This document shows, piece by piece, positions 12,101-48,400 of a DNA stretch of 64,000 nt. Positions within the stretch are counted from its first letter, which is position 1, and each line of letters starts with the position of its first letter. The stretch is from Centroberyx gerrardi (lineage: Eukaryota > Chordata > Actinopteri > Beryciformes > Berycidae). The notes under the pieces were generated by a model. It did not search any database. It was not told the origin of the DNA and saw only the letters and a list, made by a program, of their open reading frames with translations. Both the position numbers and the translations under genes were made by a program. The DNA lies in contig NC_136000.1 of assembly GCF_048128805.1 (NCBI RefSeq), positions 11,372,354-11,436,353 on the forward strand. Direction: 5' to 3'.

Positions 12101-14590
12101 CCAAACATGGGCACTTGCCAGGCGGCTTGTTTTCTGTCCGACTGTGGTTTTCCAACAGTCTAAATCCATGAAGCGGATTTGCTCACAACAGCCAACATAT
12201 TTCTCCAATCTGCATCCCCCTTGTAAAGCAAAGGAAGGAAGGCAGAGCTCACAACTGTTTGTTTTGTGCTGCCCACGGTCTCACAACCCTGTAACATAAG
12301 GCTGGGCTTTCATTGCCTGTGTAATGTATGAGCAAAAGGGAATTAGCCTTTAAAAGTTTGCTTTCAAAGAGTAGTAAATAAAGCAGCACTGATTCAGAAC
12401 TAGATCCCCTTTCTCTCAGATGGGGTATGGCTTGTGTGGGTGGCTTTGGAAATACTGAGGCACGCTGAATATGTTTATATTACATTGTCCCAAAGGAGAG
12501 TTGAGCTTTGTGGTGCAGATGGATTACAGGGGGAAAAGAGCTGTTGTAGACCTTTAAAGTTCAGTGTTAATGGTGGGAGTGAAGTGGTTGTGTAGGTGTG
12601 ATCTGCTCATTTCACAGGTCGCTGGCATTTCTGTCCAGTCAGTGAATGGAACGGGGGATTCCCAAGTCAGCCCAAAAAACGGTGTTTAGACTGAGTGTAA
12701 AGATGCAGAGATTATGAAACGACTTTGACAAACCAAGGGCTTGGAGAGGAAAAAGCCTGGGGAGCAAAAAAAGAGTAAAAGATGTCCATAGATTTATTCT
12801 AACACCTTCACAGCTGTAGATATCTGTTCCCAATCAGGACTTTTCCTGTAAGAGCACACCTTGGACTCAGCCCTCTCCTACAGTAATGAACCACAGCGAG
12901 TGCAGGCCTGTGCTATTTGGATGGGAGAGTGTGTGTGAGCGTGTGTGTGTGGGCAGGCATGCCTGAGGTTGCTGAGACTCGGCCTTCTCCTCAACATTAA
13001 TAAGGACTTCCTTCCTACCAGACAGAGTCAAACACCTGATCACTTACCGAGGAGGACATGCCCACGCATCCCTCAGAGCTGGCAGCCTTCAGGGTCTAAT
13101 AAGCATCGGCCTGTGTTCTTTAGCTGCCCATCAGTCAAAATGTTCAAACGCCGGACATCCATACACAAATCCTGTTTTCTCTCCGTCCATAGCCTGCTCC
13201 ACCCCTAATGTGTGAGAGTGTGTTTGTTTGGTAGGTTTCTGGGTTTACGATGCCAGTTTAGGGTTAGATATTGTAGGTGGAAACTATACCTGAACTGTCC
13301 AGAGACACAGAAAGAAGAAATAATCCCTCTTCTACGTACGCCGCTTCAGAAATTATAACTTTCTCCAATGGCAATAACTTTTGGCCTCTTTTAAAAACGT
13401 TGGGCCAAGATACACCTGGTGAAATGTGCATTTTTATGATGTGCATAACCTCTTATTTTTCCTCTTTAAATATCAAGTTTTGAAATGGTTTTTCCATAAT
13501 TGAATTAGAGTGGCTAGTCACAACTGACTCAAGAATACATCCACAGAGTTTCCAGCCCAGATGCTGTCAAAGAATTACTTGGCCCAAGCGATGGACAAGT
13601 TAATAGGAGCTGAACAGAAGATTGTCCCATTCACTGAGCTCAGACTTGTGACTGAGATCTGAAAGTCTGAACTGAAATATCTTGATCAAATTACCACTTT
13701 TCATATGATATTAGATTATGGACATATGATATCTTAATTGCGTGGGCTGAAGGCCTCCTCTTGCATCCCATATGTTGGCTGTCATAAATCTGGCTGTGTT
13801 CAGATAGAGCGCTAGTGTTACAGGATCACATACTGTCAACATACCTCCCAGGAACGGGATGTTTCAGCACCAAGACCTGCCTCAGTCAGATTGTGTTCAG
13901 CAAGGGTTGACATGAGCAATCATGTGGGTCTTGCAGGGAACAAAATATCCCCAAACTAAATCCAAACCTGCTCTACTTTAGTTCTTCAGCCAGGGAGTTT
14001 ACCCCAGTGAGGGTCAGCATATATTAGTGATTCAAATACGATTTTACAAGCCCTGTTGAATTGGTTCTATATTTAATATTCAATATCATCTGGTCTTCAT
14101 GTTCTGTACGCAGTATAACAATATCAGTATCAATTGATGCAGTTATCTCAATTACTTTGATAATGTTATAAAGCAGATCATGTGTGATACAGAACATGCT
14201 GATAGCATTGAACAGATCAAGCATGAGATCCAAACAAGAGGCACTTGAGCTGCATAATGTCCTGCCATAACCATCATGATATATTAAATATAACCAGTTA
14301 TGCTAATGAGACCATTAATTAAACTAATCAATGCATTAATTAGCAAATATTTAATTGTCGACACACTTGTCTTTTACATAACGCATGGTGCTGTTAATAT
14401 GAACTACTTAAAGTATTAAGGAGTTGTAGTAGTTTTGAGAAAATGTGTTTTTCCTCATTAATGTGCAAATTTACGCAGCAAGTCCAAACATCTAATTAGA
14501 TCATCTACTCTTCGACACCACAGGGGAAACCTGTGGTGTCTGCATGATGTTTCTATCATGTTACTGCGTTCATGTGAATGTGCCTACACA
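9108..14590. other. Intergenic sequence, no gene recognised
   Basis: AT-rich with only short, unconvincing open frames. A GC-richer strip at about 9585-9760 has no coding signature I can name. Possible regulatory DNA cannot be judged without comparison to other fish. Confidence 0.55.
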
Positions 14591-14615
14591 CAGACAGACA
14601 AACAGACAGACAGGC

Positions 14616-14648
<33 letters not shown>

Positions 14649-14827
14649 GGCAGACAGACAGACAGACAGACAGACAGAGAGACAGACAGACAGACAGACA
14701 GACAGGCAGAGAGACAGACAGGCAGACAGACAGACAGACAGGCAGACAGACAGACAGACAGGCAGAGAGACAGACAGGCAGACAGACAGACAGGCAGACA
14801 GACAGACAGACAGACAGACAGGCAGGC

Positions 14828-14890
<63 letters not shown>

Positions 14891-15139
14891 GAGACAGACA
14901 GGCAGACAGACAGACAGACAGACAGACAGACAGGCAGGCAGACAGACAGACAGAGAGACAGACAGGCAGACAGACAGGCAGACAGACAGACAGGCAGACA
15001 GACAGACAGACAGAGAGACAGACAGGCAGACAGACAGGCAGGCAGACAGACAGACAGACAGACAGGCAGGCAGGCAGACAGGCAGACAGACAGACAGACA
15101 GACAGGCAGACAGACAGACAGACAGACAGGCAGACAGAC
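14591..15139. repeat. Large (CAGA)n tetranucleotide array with CAGG and GAGA variants
   Basis: 549 bp of almost pure CAGA tetramers, interspersed with CAGG units and occasional GAGA changes. Open frames run the whole length on both strands only because the repeat lacks stop codons; they are not genes. Confidence 0.98.
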
Positions 15140-15309
15140 GCCTGCATGATGAAAATGTCCTGCATATCATGTACCATGGTGGCAGGGCATAAAAAGTATC
15201 TATTAATGGCTCTGTAAGGCACTTTGGATGAAAATCAAATGATTATGTAATACCTTGTTTAAGTAGGCCTATATATTATTGGTGACATAAGTCTTCTTTT
15301 TCATGTGTT

Positions 15310-28200: not shown

Positions 28201-28519
28201 ATTCAATCATTTTACAGCTAGTTAATTTTGAATTTTTGCGTTGTGTTCATTTGCAGCATACGCGTTTATCTTACTTCGAAAAAACATATCTGACTGAAAA
28301 TATTTTAGCTACGAAGCTAACAAGCAAAACAGGGCCTTTATTTTGTTAAACATTTCTGTCCTGTTAGCTGAATTGCCAGCGAGTAGGCGCCAGTCTCGTT
28401 TGACAACAGCGCTATTCGGTCACGTTCTCGGTGTTGTTGTTTGTAGCTGGTGAGCGAACTTGCTAATTTCCGTTAGCTGCAAGCAAAAAACTAATAATAA
28501 GCTAGCCGAAAAAGCAAAC

Positions 28520-31469
28520 ATGGCAGAATTCCTCGAAGATCCGTCGGTTCTCACGAAAGATAAGCTCAAAAATGAGCTGACGGCAAACAATGTGCCACTT
28601 CCCAGCGGAGAACATAAAAAGGAAGTGTATGTTCAGTTGTATCTGAAGAACTTGACCATACTAAACAACAAGAAAAGTCCACCCACAGACACGTTTTCCA
28701 GCGACGAAGAATTACCCACTCCCGTGATCTCCAACAAAAGTCGCTCTGGCAGAGTAAGTTTGAGTTTTGCCTCCAAAATTGATCTAAATCGGCTATTTGC
28801 GTTTACGAGCACTATATGATTTGATGCAGTGGTAAATGCCTATAGGCGTTTCTTGTCGTCTATATGGATTGATAAACAAAACACATTTGTGTATGATTTT
28901 TTCAAATATTCATATAATCCTTTGGCAGAAAGCTACCAGGAAGACCGACAAGCCCCGCACAGAAGAAGTAGAAGTGACAGATCTCACTGATGAAGACTTA
29001 AAACAACAGCTGGCAAAGCACGGTGTGGACTCAGGACCCATTGTGGGTAAGTTTCTTGAAGCAGGAAAAATCTGGGGAGAAGTCATGCAATTTGAATGTT
29101 GTGCTTTCCAGCCCTTGAAATTTTCGAGTAAGATTATATACATTACCAGAAAGATTTGGAATTGGAAATAGAAATTTGTTTGGAATCTTATCAACCAATG
29201 ATTACTGTCAACTTGCTTGCTGGTATCTAGTTACCTTTGAACCAGTAGTAACCCAAATAAAACATTTCTTGACTTTCAATAAAACCTTGGGCCTTTGAAG
29301 CTGAAGCTGTGCCATATGTAATGGAATAGTCGCATAAAAGCTGCATTTATTCAACAAAAATGTGTGTGAACCCTGTTGGAGTGAAAATATGTTGGGTGTT
29401 CGAAAGGCAAGATGTTATCTAACTCCTTTCTCACCCCTGTATCCCCTCCGTTCAGCCTCCACCCGTAAGGTGTATGAGAAGAAGCTCCAGAAGCTTCTGG
29501 ACCAGCCTCCAGCTGAAACCCCCAGCGCCCCTGAACCTGCCACAGACCTCACAGTTCTGCCCAAGGCAGACAGCAACCAGAACGGCAACACAAATTCTGA
29601 CCAGTACAGCGACAAGGAAGATGGTGAGCTCTTACCACAGATCACTGACCATCACTTGAAATAAAAACATGGCCTGAAAATGTCTATGAACATGTTGATA
29701 TGTGAAAGAACATGTCACCGCAACTAGGGATGGGACAATAACCGGTATTACTATATATAAGTAGTAAAAAACAATAATAGTTATGACACCGCCAATAATT
29801 TTTATTATTGTGACCACCATGATAACTGGCTCTCATCTGTCATCACTGATGTTTTATTTTCCCCAAAAGGGGGAGCACTATAATAAACTTATGTTCACTT
29901 TTATTCATGTTGCTGACTGAGTTGGAGTAGATGCAGACCAGTCGCTCTTTATTTGAGACGTATCTGACTTAATTTTTTTTTTTAAATTTATTTTAGTTAT
30001 TTGGATTTTTATTTGTTGTGTAAAACTATCCTTACAGTGTCTATAAGCTAAATCAGTATTTTATAATTTTCTTTTTTAAGAAAAAGGTCGAATGTGGGAG
30101 GGAGGGGGGGTCACTGCTATAGTTAACATTAAAAAATCTATTGTAACCATTATTTCTCACTGTTATGTTTGCATTGCCTCTGTTTTTGTCAGAGGAGATT
30201 GCTGCCCCTGAACCAGAGCCAGTCCCTGTAGTGGAGAAGCCTGTGCGGAGCCGAGGGAAAACTCCTGTCACTGTCAGGACCAGCAGCAGACGACAAACCA
30301 AGGTGAGACGCTTTCTACCGGTCCTAAACCCAGATATATATATATATATATATAGAGCCAGTCTGTATGTAGGCTATACATTTGTACGAAGGCACAGTAT
30401 CTTACTTTATGTCAACATACTCACAGGTGGTGGAGGAGAAGCTTGCCAGTGGCGACGAGACCCCTATGAAGACTGGGGAGAGTGTTGTTGAAGATATCCT
30501 TGCCAATGAAATTAGCACGCCAACAGGCATCAGGTAACAATCAAACATCATTTTCTGTCTTTGTTATTGTTTTAAGGTGCTCACATACATTTACTGAGGT
30601 GCCCATGCATCATTTACTGTGACACATTACTGCTTTTGGAACTAGAGCTGAACAATTAATCAAAAAAAAAATCGAAATTGCAATATGAACTTTCAGAGGC
30701 TGCAATTAATTGCTAAAGAGAGTGAGGTGTCCAAAATGGACTAACCAAGATATTTTACAGCTCGGGGAAATCTTTGGTCCATGAATCAAGTACAGTATTG
30801 GTGAAAACCTTTCATGATAGTCAAACTCCGTAAATCCTGCACACTGACATCAATTGTTTATTAACAAAATCACTTTTATTTAAACAATTTTAAAGTTCTA
30901 AAAAATGTATGACAAGAAAAACTTGTGATGATGTGAATCTCAGTTTAAATCGCAATTGCAATATTCTGTCAAATAATCACAGATTTTTTGTCAATATCTT
31001 TCAGCCCTATTTGGAACATCAGGTCAATGTTAACATTAAAGTTTGATTTTGTTGTTTCATATTTCGATGTTCCTCTGTGATCAGTGCAACCTGCAGGCGG
31101 CCGATTCGAGGGGCGGCTGGTCGACCATTGAAGCCTAGCGAGTACTGGCTGGACGAGACCCTCATGCAGCGCAGCATCCGCACTGAGACCCGCTCCTACT
31201 CCGAGTCCGTCTCCCGCATCGGCAGCACGGCTTCTTCAAGCAAGGCGCCAACCCGAAGAGGCTTCCTGTCTGTGATGCTCAAGCTGCTGCTCCTGGTTGC
31301 GGTGGCCGGCTCCCTCTACTATGCCTACCAGAACCTGGATGCCAGTCAGATCGACACCCTCAAAGGCCTCCTGGACAGCGTGATCGTCCCCCTCCAGGGC
31401 GTTGTGGACAGCGCAGCCACCTACCTGGGCATCGGCGGCAGCGGCGCCGCAAAGAGCGCCGGCAAGTAA
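28520..31469 (+). CDS. tmpo: Thymopoietin / lamina-associated polypeptide 2, beta/gamma type
   Basis: Inner nuclear membrane LEM protein that binds lamins, and chromatin through BAF. Coding exons: 28520-28753, 28929-29046, 29456-29623, 30193-30302, 30427-30533 and 31085-31469. They join in frame to 373 aa with GT-AG introns. Residues 1-50 form the LEM-like domain ([20 protein letters not shown]). Residues about 93-135 form the LEM domain ([23 protein letters not shown]). Exon 5 ends with the highly conserved [16 protein letters not shown]. Exon 6 continues [16 protein letters not shown], then one transmembrane span at about residues 306-327 and a short Ser/Gly/Ala-rich lumenal tail. Human LAP2-beta is 454 aa; the shorter length suggests a gamma-like form or beta-specific exons not recognised here. 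No alpha-type large exon is visible. A probable poly(A) signal is AATAAA at 33127-33132. Confidence 0.95.
29727..29830. mobile_element. Fragment of a hAT-like short element
   Basis: Begins tagggatgggacaataaccg, a terminus type seen in non-autonomous teleost elements. No matching opposite end was found before tmpo exon 4, so it is probably truncated. Confidence 0.4.
30334..30354. repeat. (TA)n microsatellite in tmpo intron 4
   Basis: About ten TA units, 70 bp upstream of exon 5. Confidence 0.9.
30643..31009. mobile_element. hAT-like non-autonomous element in tmpo intron 5
   Basis: The 367-bp element starts TAGAGCTGAA and ends TTTCAGCCCTA, so the ends are inverted copies of TAGRGCTGAA. It is flanked on both sides by the perfect 8-bp duplication TTTGGAAC (30635-30642 and 31010-31017). 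An 8-bp target duplication is the hAT-superfamily hallmark. The interior has no coding capacity. It ends 75 bp before exon 6. Confidence 0.85.
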
Positions 31470-34078: not shown

Positions 34079-37000
34079 ATGTATCCCAGTACGCTGACTC
34101 AGCTCGCCCGGGCGAACCCCTTCAGTGCCCCGCTGTTCTCCCTGCAGAAGGTCGAAGAACCGGCGCAGAGCCCGGCTCCTCATGGAGGACACCGGCGCAG
34201 ACTGGCAGCTGCTGCAGTGCCTGGTAACTAACTCTCTATTATTCTTTGTTTTTTGGTTTAATTGTTCCCTTCTCAAGTGAAAGACCTCACACGGTTGAGC
34301 AATGTCAACTTGCTCTCCCTAGTGATTCAGGTGTTACGCAAGAAGAAAGTTGTACTATTGCCTAATGTTAAGGTAAATCTGACAGATTGCCCCACTATCT
34401 TTCCATCAGAGGGAGATAGTTGTGATATTGCTTCACTGAAATACGTGATCCTCTGTGGCTTCGGTGGGATCCTGAGCTGTGTCCGCCCTTGACTTAGTGA
34501 TGCAGGTCTGTGGCCTCACCTGGAGTCCCGTGGCATGGATGTCTGCTATTGGTTGCCCTTTGATCACAACTAAAGCTACTGATTTATAAACCCGTTTGAC
34601 GTTTCAGCACTAACATCACTGGTGAAGAATGGGAAAACAAACAGTGAATTAACCATTTGCTTTTCTTTTGAGTGACAGACAGGCCTAACTGAATGCTCCC
34701 TTAAACATAAAACCATAACAGCCCCATGTATGTAGCGGAATCAGTTTTTTACATTTTCACTACATTGTTTGAGTGCAGTTAACCATTTGAAACCAACAGG
34801 ACAGTGCTGTTTATGTATATCTGTTGATTTACTTAAGTTTACTGAGAAATCTGCAACCCAGTGTGTGATGTATCTGCAACCCAGTTGAAATGTCACTTTC
34901 TACAATGTCATTGTGTGGGTGGAACACTTTGTCAGTAAATTCATGGCTTGTGTTTGCATTGTGTGATAAACTCTAGCATGGCTTGATGCAGGCTAATCGC
35001 ATGGTGTGTGTTTTGCCTTATCGTCTCTGCTGCAGATTCTGATGTGAGCTGCGAGTTTGGCTCTATGAAATACTACGCCTTGTGCGGCTTCGGGGGCATC
35101 CTGAGCTGCGGAATAACGCACACAGCTGTCGTGCCCCTCGATCTGGTCAAGTGCCGCCTGCAGGTCGGTGTTTGAGCTCTACTGTGCACGCATTATAGAT
35201 TAAGATAATACACATAAAGTACTTCTCACATGAGTGTATTCCCTCTTGGCGACATCATTGCCACCCCTAACATCATGAGTAGTCATTAACAGCCTGTACT
35301 GTCCTCATGCTTTAGGTTGACCCTGGCAAGTACAAGAGCATCTTCAATGGTTTCTCCATCACAGTGAAAGAGGATGGGGTCCGAGGGCTCGCCAAGGGCT
35401 GGGCACCCACTTTCATCGGCTACTCCATGCAGGGCCTCTGCAAGTTTGGCTTCTACGAGGTGTTCAAGATCTTTTACAGTGACCTTCTGGGAGAGGTAAG
35501 CACTGTTCAGCACTGGGCCAAAGTAATCGGTTCTTCCTTTCTGAACTTTAGTGGTCTGGTGGTTATAGAGGCCATCCCATAACTGGAAGATCGCTGATTT
35601 AGATTGCTGTAACAGCTAATGTGTCCATCCCTGTCGAAGTTTCCCTGAGTACGTCACTTAACCCCTACCTGTGCTATTGCACACCTGAACTACATCAGGG
35701 TATGAAATTCACAATTTTTGCCCCTTGATCTGATTCTTAGGGGCATTTTGGTCTTTTTTGAGGGTAAATGTATTTAACTATACTAGATTTGCATTGCATA
35801 TTGGCAAATGAACACTAAGATTTGTTTTACTTTAAATTACAATATACCATTCTTTCTTACTGCTGTACTCATGGCAGGCCATACAGAAGAGCATGGTGTC
35901 ATTTTTCCTACTCTCTGTCCCTAATCAGTCCATCTTCCACCCTTCGATTGTTGAGATTTTTACAATGTTGGTTGTTTTATTTCTTGTTGACACAGCGGTT
36001 TGTTGTGGGGTTGGTTGCATTTTCTTCTGTTGCTGGCTACACGGTGCCAACATTGCTACTGCTTCAGGCTGCGTACTCTTGTGCACAACCTCCTACTCAA
36101 CTCCTACTCAAAAACTGTTCCATTGTTATTGCTGGAAATAAACGCCCGGTCATAGGCTCCCACTAATCACCTATGTTGACCCACGGGAGACAGTAGACAA
36201 ATTCATGCCGTGAGATGGTGGGGGGAGGGTAGGCCTAATTATCGGGGGCATTTTCCCCCCTTATATTTAATTGCACATGTATTTTACGAACGTTCAGGGG
36301 CATTTTTGCTCCACGACCCTGTTAATTTCTGACCTGTCCATGTATGTGTCTCTGAGAAATATGTGAAGAAACAAATGTAATCTTACTGAGTGTTTACAAT
36401 GCGATTTAAAGGCACTAAAATTCCTACATATAAAAATGAACATTACTGACTTCTCTCTTCCCCGTTCAACAACCAGGAAAACACCTACTTATGGAGGACA
36501 TCTCTCTACCTGGCTGCCTCGGCCAGTGCAGAGTTCTTTGCTGACATTGCTCTCGCCCCCATGGAGGCGTGTAAAGTGCGGATCCAGACCCAGCCTGGTT
36601 ACGCCAACACCCTGAGAGAGTGTGCGCCCAAGATGTACGGCGAGGAGGGACTGTGGGCGTGAGTATTTTGTCTCATCTTAAACGAACTGTACTTTGTAAC
36701 AGAAATAAAGAAATAAGGTGTTCTATATACAGAATAATGCCTCTCATGCTTTATTTTACAACATTGCTTACAACATTTCACCCAAGTAGGGCTTCAGCGC
36801 AAAACATTGTAAATAAAGCACAGAAGAAACGTTATGCCGTATACTATGTAGACACCTTATTTCTTTATTCCATTTTTCCTTTTATCAGTTTGTAAAATAA
36901 GTTTTTGGATGAACGTATGCATTGATTTTCTGTAAGAATCCATAGTCGTAAAGCTTCAATATGCAACTGTTCACCTTGAAGCAGGAAGATTATTGTTAGT

Positions 37001-39791
37001 CCAGCCCTCCTCCCCCTCAGTTGGTCAAGGTCACTTTGAAGCGGTATAACAGGCAAAGCGGTGTTGAAGAATCAGACAACGATGCAATCTGTAATTGTTC
37101 ACCTGTGTTGAACGGGTTTTGTCTGCTACACATTGAGCTTTGTTGCTCTTCCTTTTCTTACTGTTTTTTCTGCCATTGTTGTTGCTATTGCAGCCCTGCA
37201 CTGTGGCTACTAGCCTCATGTTGATAGCCACAACCGAGCCCACAGCAAATAATATACACCCCAAAACATCCTGAACATAAATGAAAAGCTAGATTCAGGC
37301 AAACGTTTAGGCATGCACACACATGGATAATATATCCTATTTATTGTTATTTTAATGTCAAACAAGTTGCATATTGTAGCTTTAATTTTCTCTCTTTCTG
37401 TGAGAGGGGACACGCTCCTTAGATCCACCTCTGGGAGGCCACAGGCCCCCAGCAGCTTCCTGGCTGTACAGTTGGAGGTGCTTGAGTCATTGGCGTGTGA
37501 GAACAGTCCACCTGCTCCTCAGTCCAAACGCTGTACTGGCCCTTTACTGGACATCAACCAGTGCAGACAGACTGGGGGGCAGACACCATTTGCAATTATA
37601 TGTCTCCCAATAACTCTTTATAATCGCAACTGATTTTTTTTCACACACCATTCAACACACCCTTTCCTGTTTGTTTCTTTCTGTAGTTTCTACAAAGGTG
37701 TGGTGCCTCTGTGGATGAGGCAGATCCCTTACACCATGATGAAGTTTGCCTGCTTTGAGAGAACAGTGGAGATGCTGTACAAGCACGTTGTACCCAAACC
37801 CCGCAGCGAGTGCAGCAAGTCTGAGCAGCTGGTGGTCACCTTCGTGGCCGGGTACATCGGTGAGTCTGAGAGCCGCTACAGAAACCAGCATGGAAATCTG
37901 TCAAAGATTTATGTTGTAGTGGTAGTTGTTTGTACTTTTTACCTGCCAAATCACATTCTGTGTGTAAGAATATTGTTTTTTTTGTATATTGCATTTGATG
38001 TTAAAGCAGTTGACTCTTGATGGGGGGGTTTTCACATCTGACCTTCAGCAAGTTTGACTATTCAGTGGTGGGGGAAACTCTGGGATACATTAGACCTTTT
38101 TTTTAAATGAATTTATTTCCAAACAACATAACTGAACAATTAAATGAATAAATAAATGTGCAAAGAAAATACATTTTCGATGTAGGTTTTAGAGACTGTT
38201 TTAATGTAGCTGTGGTCAGGGAGGAATGTCATATCATATCAGAGTTGGACGACATGACTGGCTGATAGCTAATATATATATGTAATAAAAGCTGTATACC
38301 TTTAATAGAAGGCCAATATATATCGACCCGATATATCAGTCTAATGCTAATCTTGAGTGTAGCTGCCTTCCACTGCTAATGAAGTGTCTGTGTCTTGTCT
38401 GGTCGTCCCGTTTCCCCCTGCAGCTGGTGTGTTCTGTGCGATCGTGTCCCACCCTGCTGACTCGGTGGTGTCTGTGCTCAACAAGGAGAAAGGCAGCACA
38501 GCCGTCGGTGTGCTCAAGAAGCTCGGACCCAAGGGTGAGTACAGCGGTCGTCTTCAAAGCCCCTGCTGGGTAGTAAAAGTACCTGAATCAGACACGCTCC
38601 TTAGATCCACCTCTGGGGGGCCACAGGTCCCCAGCAGCTTCCTGGCTGTACAGTTGGAGGTGCTTGAGTCATTGGTGTGTGAGAACAGTCCACCTGCTCC
38701 TCAGTCCAAACACTGCACTGGCTCCTCACGGACATCAACCAGTGCAGAAAGACTGGGAAGCGGACATTTATTTGCAATCAATACTGAAGTATTTACAATT
38801 CCCCTGAATGTCTTGGTGTGGTACATGTGACCAATCACAACCTTTGAATGTGCACCCATGTGATCAAAAGTGAAAGGTAATATGGAGAAGCGGGCAGGGA
38901 GAAATGTAGCAATGTGCAAAGTGGAAAAGAATCGATCGGCCCAATGTTAAGAGAGGAAAATCCTTCTACCAAGTCTGAACATGAAAACACTGTATTAGTT
39001 CCTAAAAGTGGATCATCGTCTGAGATGACGACAAACGACTATAGTATTTGTGCAAAGTTTGCTGAGGGTTGTAGCTGCTCCCCAAAGTAATAAATATTTA
39101 TTACTTGAATTTTGTTAATAAGGACTGCAATAAGACTAAGACAGTAATAGTGAAAACAAGACTTTCTAGCTACTGCATTGAAAAGTAAAAATGTATGTTA
39201 AAGTGTGAAAAATACAATAAAATAGTTTTGTTTCCTGAAACTGAGAATAATAACCGTGATCATAATATTACATAATATAATTGGGATTATCATTTTTGCC
39301 ATAATTGTGCCACCCTATTTCCAAGTACTAGGACATTTTGGAAATGCACAAAAAATATTGTGCAGTCTAGATACACATAATGACTATACATTTAAGGTAG
39401 CTGTAGACCCGCTACTTTGTACGATGTTCAGCTATGGAGTGAGATGGCATAGTTGACATAACCGCTATCAGCAAATGCATATTTATATATATTGAACACG
39501 GGCCAAAATTTTCACATTCAGTCAAGAACTTTAAGGTCTGTTTATGTTAAAATGTGAGTTGAGTAGGAACCTTGACAGTATAACGCTATTTATCCTGAAT
39601 GTAAACCCTTTTTCCTCTGTCCGACCCCAGGTGTGTGGAAGGGTCTGGTGGCTCGTATCATCATGATCGGTACGCTGACCGCCCTGCAGTGGTTCATCTA
39701 CGACTCGGTGAAGGTGTACTTCCGCCTGCCCCGCCCCCCTCCACCAGAGATGCCCGAGTCCCTGAAGAAGAAGCTGGGACTGACGGAATGA
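34079..39791 (+). CDS. slc25a3: Mitochondrial phosphate carrier (exon 3B-type)
   Basis: Inner mitochondrial membrane carrier importing phosphate for ATP synthesis (family knowledge). Coding exons: 34079-34223, 35036-35163, 35316-35495, 36477-36658, 37687-37859, 38424-38534 and 39631-39791. Together they give 359 aa in frame. After a presequence-like N-terminus ([15 protein letters not shown], then an Arg/Ala-rich stretch) come three carrier repeats with signature motifs PLDLVK, PMEACK and PADSVV. The C-terminus [20 protein letters not shown] closely matches the vertebrate protein. The first membrane-repeat exon reads [21 protein letters not shown], the 3B isoform type. A decayed 3A-type exon lies upstream. 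It sits directly downstream of tmpo in the same orientation, as in human 12q23. Poly(A) signal AATAAA at 40022-40027. Confidence 0.97.
34410..34505 (+). pseudogene. Decayed mutually exclusive exon 3A of slc25a3
   Basis: A CAG acceptor at 34407-34409 opens a segment encoding [21 protein letters not shown], clearly homologous to the working exon at 35036-35163. Directly after that Cys the reading gives VRP and TGA. Nucleotides that follow (cttgacttagtgatgcag|gtctgtg) still align with the end of the working exon (ctcgatctggtcaag...ctgcag|gtcggtg), so about 30 bases have been lost and the frame is broken. Mammalian SLC25A3 uses two alternative third exons, 3A (heart/muscle) and 3B. The residues SCD and ILCG fit 3A better, and the upstream position fits too. 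Confidence 0.85.
35698..36345. mobile_element. Inverted-repeat element in slc25a3 intron 4
   Basis: The left edge reads cagggtatgaaattcaca followed by tttttgcccc. The right edge, reverse complemented, reads caggtcagaaattaacaggg followed by aaaaatgcccc. These are imperfect inverted termini of a kind known from non-autonomous hAT-like fish elements. I found no clear target duplication. Interior open frames have no recognisable domain. Confidence 0.45.
37409..37598 (+). repeat. Copy A of a duplicated ~190-bp segment (slc25a3 intron 5)
   Basis: Nearly identical to 38591-38779 (about nine in ten bases by eye). Both are open in one frame and translate to similar peptides ([22 protein letters not shown]). 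No exon-like splice sites bracket it consistently. Confidence 0.85.
38260..38352. mobile_element. Dispersed repeat fragment in slc25a3 intron 7
   Basis: A ggccaatatatatcgacccg block followed by atatatcagtctaatgc resembles a common teleost interspersed repeat. Fragmentary. Confidence 0.3.
38591..38779 (+). repeat. Copy B of the duplicated ~190-bp segment (slc25a3 intron 7)
   Basis: Second copy, in the same orientation, starting 57 bp past the exon 7 donor. The boundaries of the similarity match copy A at gacacgctcc on the left and ttgcaat on the right. Confidence 0.85.
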
Positions 39792-43601: not shown

Positions 43602-48052
<4,451 letters not shown>

Positions 48053-48400
48053 CTGAACAGCAGGGGGCGACATAGCTGCCCATCACCTTATTACTCTGCA
48101 GTCCCAAAATACCAGACAGCTCCCACCGCACACTCCTTCACCCGCTGCCCTCTGTAGATCCCCAGGCGTACGGGGTTTGTATCCCATGAGTCTTAGCTAG
48201 GTGTCAGGGTCCGCACTCGGCTGCTCGCTGGAGAGGAGACTAAAATGTGAGTCAACTGAGTGAAATCAAACGTTTCACTCATTTGTCTTTGACTGTGTTG
48301 CAGTATGGGACGATGTGTCACTCATGTTGCTTTGATGTGAAATAAATCAAGTTTGTTGGTGCTTGAACTGGGAGTGCATGTGTGCATTATTCAGTGTTTC

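Follow-up and report, generated by a model that had tools for sequence, protein, structure and literature searches.

The slc25a3 gene in the window analysed here, a stretch of 64,000 nucleotides (C4:11372354-11436353) from a fish genome of 779 Mb, very probably carries the decayed remains of exon 3A, a spare exon that was lost after duplication of the chromosomal block while the second gene copy, on contig C24, kept the 3A/3B pair. One genome assembly was analysed, and this reading refers to that assembly. The remains lie at positions 34410-34505 on the plus strand. The acceptor, readable block, frameshift, TGA, distal exon end and donor that the original prediction had described there were all confirmed, and its coordinates proved exact.

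The slc25a3 gene in the window is complete: its seven coding exons, all on the plus strand, can be joined to a 359-codon open frame. Family profile tests matched three Mito_carr repeats in this frame; the name of the phosphate carrier subfamily, slc25a3, is our own assignment. None of the NCBIfam models matched the gene product, and a comparison with solved structures returned only other carriers, with no phosphate carrier among the 8 distinct sequences matched. The first coding exon (exon 2 in the numbering of the original prediction) spans 34079-34223 and ends in phase 1 with the donor CCTG/GTAACT. The intact exon 3B of this copy follows at 35036-35163 (128 nt), and five further coding exons are located at 35316-35495, 36477-36658, 37687-37859, 38424-38534 and 39631-39791. 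As predicted originally, this copy is 3B-only: the 359-codon frame runs via 3B and is otherwise intact, so that a full protein would be made from the 3B splice form alone. A transcript that includes the fossil, with or without 3B, meets a stop at codon 76, and one that skips both exons meets a stop at codon 50. Two introns of the gene harbour stretches of about 180 bases (37400-37582 and about 38590-38764) that look closely similar by eye and are perhaps copies of a SINE-like dispersed repeat.

The fossil has exon 2 upstream and exon 3B downstream of it, and its phase at entry equals that of 3B. It measures 96 nt, compared with 125 nt for the intact 3A of the paralogue. Its acceptor tract (34387-34409) has pyrimidines at 13 of the 16 positions from -20 to -5 and ends in the CAG that directly precedes 34410. 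The readable block of 24 codons extends over 34410-34480, the first base of codon 1 being supplied by exon 2. There follow 7 residual bases (34481-34487) of a stretch that comprises 27 bases in the intact 3A, 20 having been lost, and then the alignable distal exon end (34488-34505), which corresponds to LDLV, a gap of 9 bases and MQ. The 9 bases missing before the last two codons bring the total loss relative to the paralogue's intact 3A to 29, in good agreement with the roughly 30 bases estimated before. Owing to the 20-base loss the frame is shifted: read in the phase of exon 2, the fossil specifies 27 residues and then a TGA (34490-34492), which is codon 76 of a fossil-containing transcript. 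The distal boundary reads CAG/GTCTGT at 34505/34506, and the donor GTCTGT (34506-34511) is the same as that of the paralogue's intact 3A. Both splice sites are therefore present. Because the TGA at 34490, the frameshift and the two deletions leave no open frame through to exon 4, we regard the segment as a fossil rather than a working exon 3A.

That the segment is a genuine homologue of the alternative exons is indicated by two kinds of search. Local alignment of the intron with its own 3B gave a score of 41, whereas the best of 1000 dinucleotide shuffles reached 35; under looser scoring the values were 26 and 18. A six-frame search of the whole genome with the paralogue's 3A as query, accepting E-values up to 10, returned four candidates, all of which were scored: the query exon, the 3B exon of each gene copy, and the fossil (E=1.2e-5, 72% over residues 1-25), which was the only broken one of the four. 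The original prediction had named an intact 3A elsewhere in the intron as an observation that would speak against it. With 3B as query, no intact 3A was found in this intron or in the window and no other 3A remnant in the intron, and the genome search with the paralogue's 3A brought up neither an intact 3A besides the paralogue's own nor a second remnant.

The identity of the fossil as exon 3A is well supported by comparison with the three intact exons. In global alignments the fossil scored 62.5 against the paralogue's 3A (70/96 bases identical), 38.0 against the 3B of its own gene (67/96) and 40.5 against the paralogue's 3B (67/95), the base identities as such differing only slightly. The 27 aligned codons contain 10 informative sites, seven of which group the fossil with 3A, two with its own 3B and one with the paralogue's 3B (binomial 0.020). 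Maximum-likelihood AU tests on all codons rejected both alternatives to the grouping with 3A (p-AU 0.0216 and 0.0211). Omission of these three N-terminal codons, which cannot be aligned to 3B with certainty, gave p-AU values of 0.125 and 0.114, which are not significant. Marks of 3A in the DNA of the fossil are the EGDS start, the donor, and letters that it has in common with 3A in the codons for VIL and MQ; the EGDS start and the GTCTGT donor are common to the fossil and the paralogue's 3A and occur in neither 3B. A closer similarity of the fossil to 3B in all fish had likewise been named as evidence against the prediction; in this one genome, the fossil was not closer to 3B by alignment score or by informative sites.

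One may ask whether the segment could instead be a failed later duplicate of exon 3B that never was the ancestral 3A. The fossil does share with its own 3B the residues KY and two third-position letters, and at the amino acid level it is equally distant from all three intact exons, differing from each at 7 of 27 codons. Zebrafish 3A and 3B are also reported to be alike (84%; PMC6468709). Against such an origin stand the higher score and the larger number of informative sites obtained with the paralogue's 3A, the matching EGDS start and GTCTGT donor, and the location of the segment at the place expected for 3A, with no other 3A remnant in the intron or the genome. We consider a failed 3B duplicate extremely improbable; the two informative sites, in codons 11 and 18, that join the fossil to its own 3B may reflect homoplasy or an old gene conversion.

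The second slc25a3 copy was found on contig C24 with a query composed of 3B and exon 4. Its exon 3A (18046438-18046562) and exon 3B (18047620-18047744) each comprise 125 bases, are in phase and are bounded by AG and GT, and with either exon the gene has a complete open frame. When prokaryote genome contigs and viral contigs were scanned with exon 4, no fish sequence came up (82 and 17 pattern matches, respectively, none confirmed). In the window, slc25a3 is preceded by coding stretches of tmpo (thymopoietin; 28505-31466, plus strand), for which the Thymopoietin family was matched on 28505-28750 only and LEM matches were obtained at 28971-29048 and 29455-29499; the remaining stretches we assigned to tmpo from their position. 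Downstream of slc25a3 are coding stretches of a lactate dehydrogenase (43605-46881, plus strand; family tested on the first two stretches), which we take to be ldhb. LEM/tmpo, slc25a3 and lactate dehydrogenase agree in order and strand between the two contigs, tmpo on C24 being assigned from its LEM match (E=3.1e-4). Judged by this arrangement, the two regions form a duplicated block, and this duplication is most likely that of the teleost genome, as far as synteny in one genome can tell.

The window holds several other features. Just downstream of the lactate dehydrogenase exons, a tandem array (47464-48082) has an open (VD)n frame on one strand and (TS)n or (NI)n frames on the opposite one. 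Another long tandem array, at 14574-15183, has several open frames on both strands. An exon at 63463-63723 matches the UAA transporter family and presumably belongs to slc35b4. Among the coding-like stretches listed for the window, the top-scoring one is situated on the minus strand at 669-1109; its peptide, SVSHAQLMHDKGRSLQEFKRRMWLQELLEEVHTAD, looks like parathyroid hormone-like hormone.

The suspicion that a second paralogue might carry an intact 3A was borne out by the copy on C24. The further proposal that alternative splicing had been replaced by gene copies is unsupported, because this paralogue retains intact 3A and 3B exons with full frames for both. A reciprocal division of labour would leave one copy with 3B only and the other with 3A only. 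The 3B-only window copy and the presence of a 3A in the other copy agree with such a scheme, whereas the intact, in-frame 3B of the C24 copy, complete with splice sites, makes the scheme as a whole very improbable: the two copies do not each retain one exon, as C24 has both. To judge from their exons, the loss is one-sided, a redundant exon having gone from one copy with no reciprocal split. The capacity for alternative splicing survives in the C24 copy, which alone in this genome has the sequence required for a 3A/3B switch.

We propose that the ancestral slc25a3 gene had a choice of 3A or 3B to join exon 2 with exon 4, and that this pair would have been retained for a long time in both copies after the block duplication. 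Exon 3A of the window copy could die because a spare 3A existed; after constraint was lost, it would have suffered two deletions, the frameshift and extra amino acid changes. The window copy would then be left with the 3B form, and the C24 copy, with both exons, would supply any 3A protein. The distribution of unique changes is in line with this sequence of events, small as the counts are: 10 in the fossil (5 of them altering an amino acid), 4 in the intact 3A (1) and 2 in each 3B (none). The 5 changes in the fossil fall on 63 amino-acid-altering sites, which gives 0.079 per site (Poisson 95% range 0.026-0.185). At a neutral rate of 2-4 changes per billion years per site, the fossil would be roughly 20-40 million years old (about 6-90 over the range), an estimate that is very uncertain. 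With the teleost duplication dated to 350-320 million years (PMC8297816), the loss of 3A from the window copy looks late, well after that event. We infer that the fossil is normally skipped, and its former tissue use is deduced in the same manner.

Since usable-looking splice sites and an early stop are combined within a coding gene, the fossil resembles poison exons, which are coupled to nonsense-mediated decay; unlike in these exons, inclusion of the fossil and selection for its splice sites are hypothetical here. According to such a reading, the fossil would still be spliced in heart and muscle, drawn into the transcript by muscle splicing factors with a preference for the 3A site, and the TGA at codon 76 would lead to decay of the transcript, turning this gene copy down in muscle. 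Intact acceptor and donor sites agree with this, as do an acceptor tract no poorer in pyrimidines (13 of 16) than those of three working exons (12, 13 and 13), the donor identical to that of intact 3A, and a stop located far upstream of the later junctions. Survival of the splice sites is nevertheless no strong sign of use: by a hand calculation, at about 0.08 changes per site all four obligate splice bases would by chance stay unchanged in about 70% of cases. Nor is there elevated intron conservation between the paralogues, as the best local score did not rise above shuffles in any of the three C4 and C24 intron pairs, 33, 84 and 144 out of 200 shuffles having attained it.

Splicing motifs leave a similar impression. 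In mouse heart, use of 3A is lost without QKI and is accompanied by QKI motifs that follow 3A and precede 3B (PMC10202634). The intron between the fossil and 3B has one ACTAAC (34609) and three GCATG motifs (34533, 34976 and 34999, i.e. +28 from the fossil and -60 and -37 from 3B), and a further ACTAAC lies beside the exon 2 donor at 34227. These counts were reached by 60/1000 shuffles for GCATG and 144/1000 for ACTAAC in the fossil-3B intron, and by 50/1000 for ACTAAC in the intron between exon 2 and the fossil, which is near chance for 24 motif-by-region tests. TGCATG is missing from the fossil-3B intron, compared with three in the 3A-3B intron of the paralogue (C24:18046563-18047619), at +98 from 3A and at -48 and -36 from 3B; there, 46/1000 shuffles reached the count for TGCATG and 16/1000 that for GCATG (same 24 tests). 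It is suggestive, though not firm, that RBFOX control may have weakened along with the window exon. The motif ACTAAY was not found in the paralogue's 3A-3B intron, which argues against carrying the mouse QKI model over unchanged. In view of the 24 tests we do not rely on the RBFOX and QKI motifs. Taken together, we consider it very improbable that the fossil is still spliced as a poison exon, and equally so that the dead exon has been retained to switch this copy off in muscle, with the paralogue doing the work of 3A; if it were, a former alternative exon would have become a tissue-specific expression control.

On the preferred reading, that of a spare exon in decay, slc25a3 presents an alternative exon caught part-way through its death, with the intact sister exon in the same genome as a control. 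It suggests that the loss of mutually exclusive splicing from a fish duplicate can be late and one-sided, and not a clean division of exons. The general principle that alternative exons decay in fish duplicates has already been published, so that this instance is a clear but ordinary example. In mammals, 3A is the form of heart and muscle (PMC13252106, PMC7226361), and human mutations in exon 3A accompany cardiomyopathy and myopathy (PMC7226361). The stakes of losing 3A are lowered by the report that survival of mouse myotubes is rescued by either isoform (PMC13252106). How much the 3A form is needed could be judged in part from a comparison of fish lineages that have a second 3A with those that lack one. 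Among the matches listed, whose titles and abstract openings were considered, there was no report of this slc25a3 3A loss, the broad searches having been covered in part; four short peptide words gave no match in literature text.

Several known systems can be set beside this case. The mutually exclusive exons 3A and 3B of vertebrate SLC25A3 correspond to those described here in gene, position and phase, and the pair is intact in the C24 paralogue as well as in zebrafish slc25a3b, for which both exons are reported (PMC6468709); in the window copy, by contrast, the 3A partner is broken and 3B is left alone. As it is zebrafish slc25a3b that carries both exons, we provisionally designate the window copy slc25a3a. 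In rainbow trout, SLC25A3 is listed among the top muscle-specific splicing patterns, the exon being unstated (PMC8321248), which suggests that fish may use the 3A/3B switch too. Degeneration of alternative exons in teleost duplicates has been described for mitf (Altschmied et al. 2002) and, across five fish, in a survey that covered about 90 human genes (Abascal et al. 2015); the two are cited here after PMC5306129. In these accounts an alternative exon decays in one fish duplicate and is kept by the other, as is also seen here. According to PMC5306129, some genes in the five-fish survey are at odds with reciprocal sharing, so that one-sided losses may already be contained in it. For mitf, each copy is reported to have retained one of the two exons, whereas in slc25a3 the loss is confined to one copy, the other has both exons, and the dead one can still be read.
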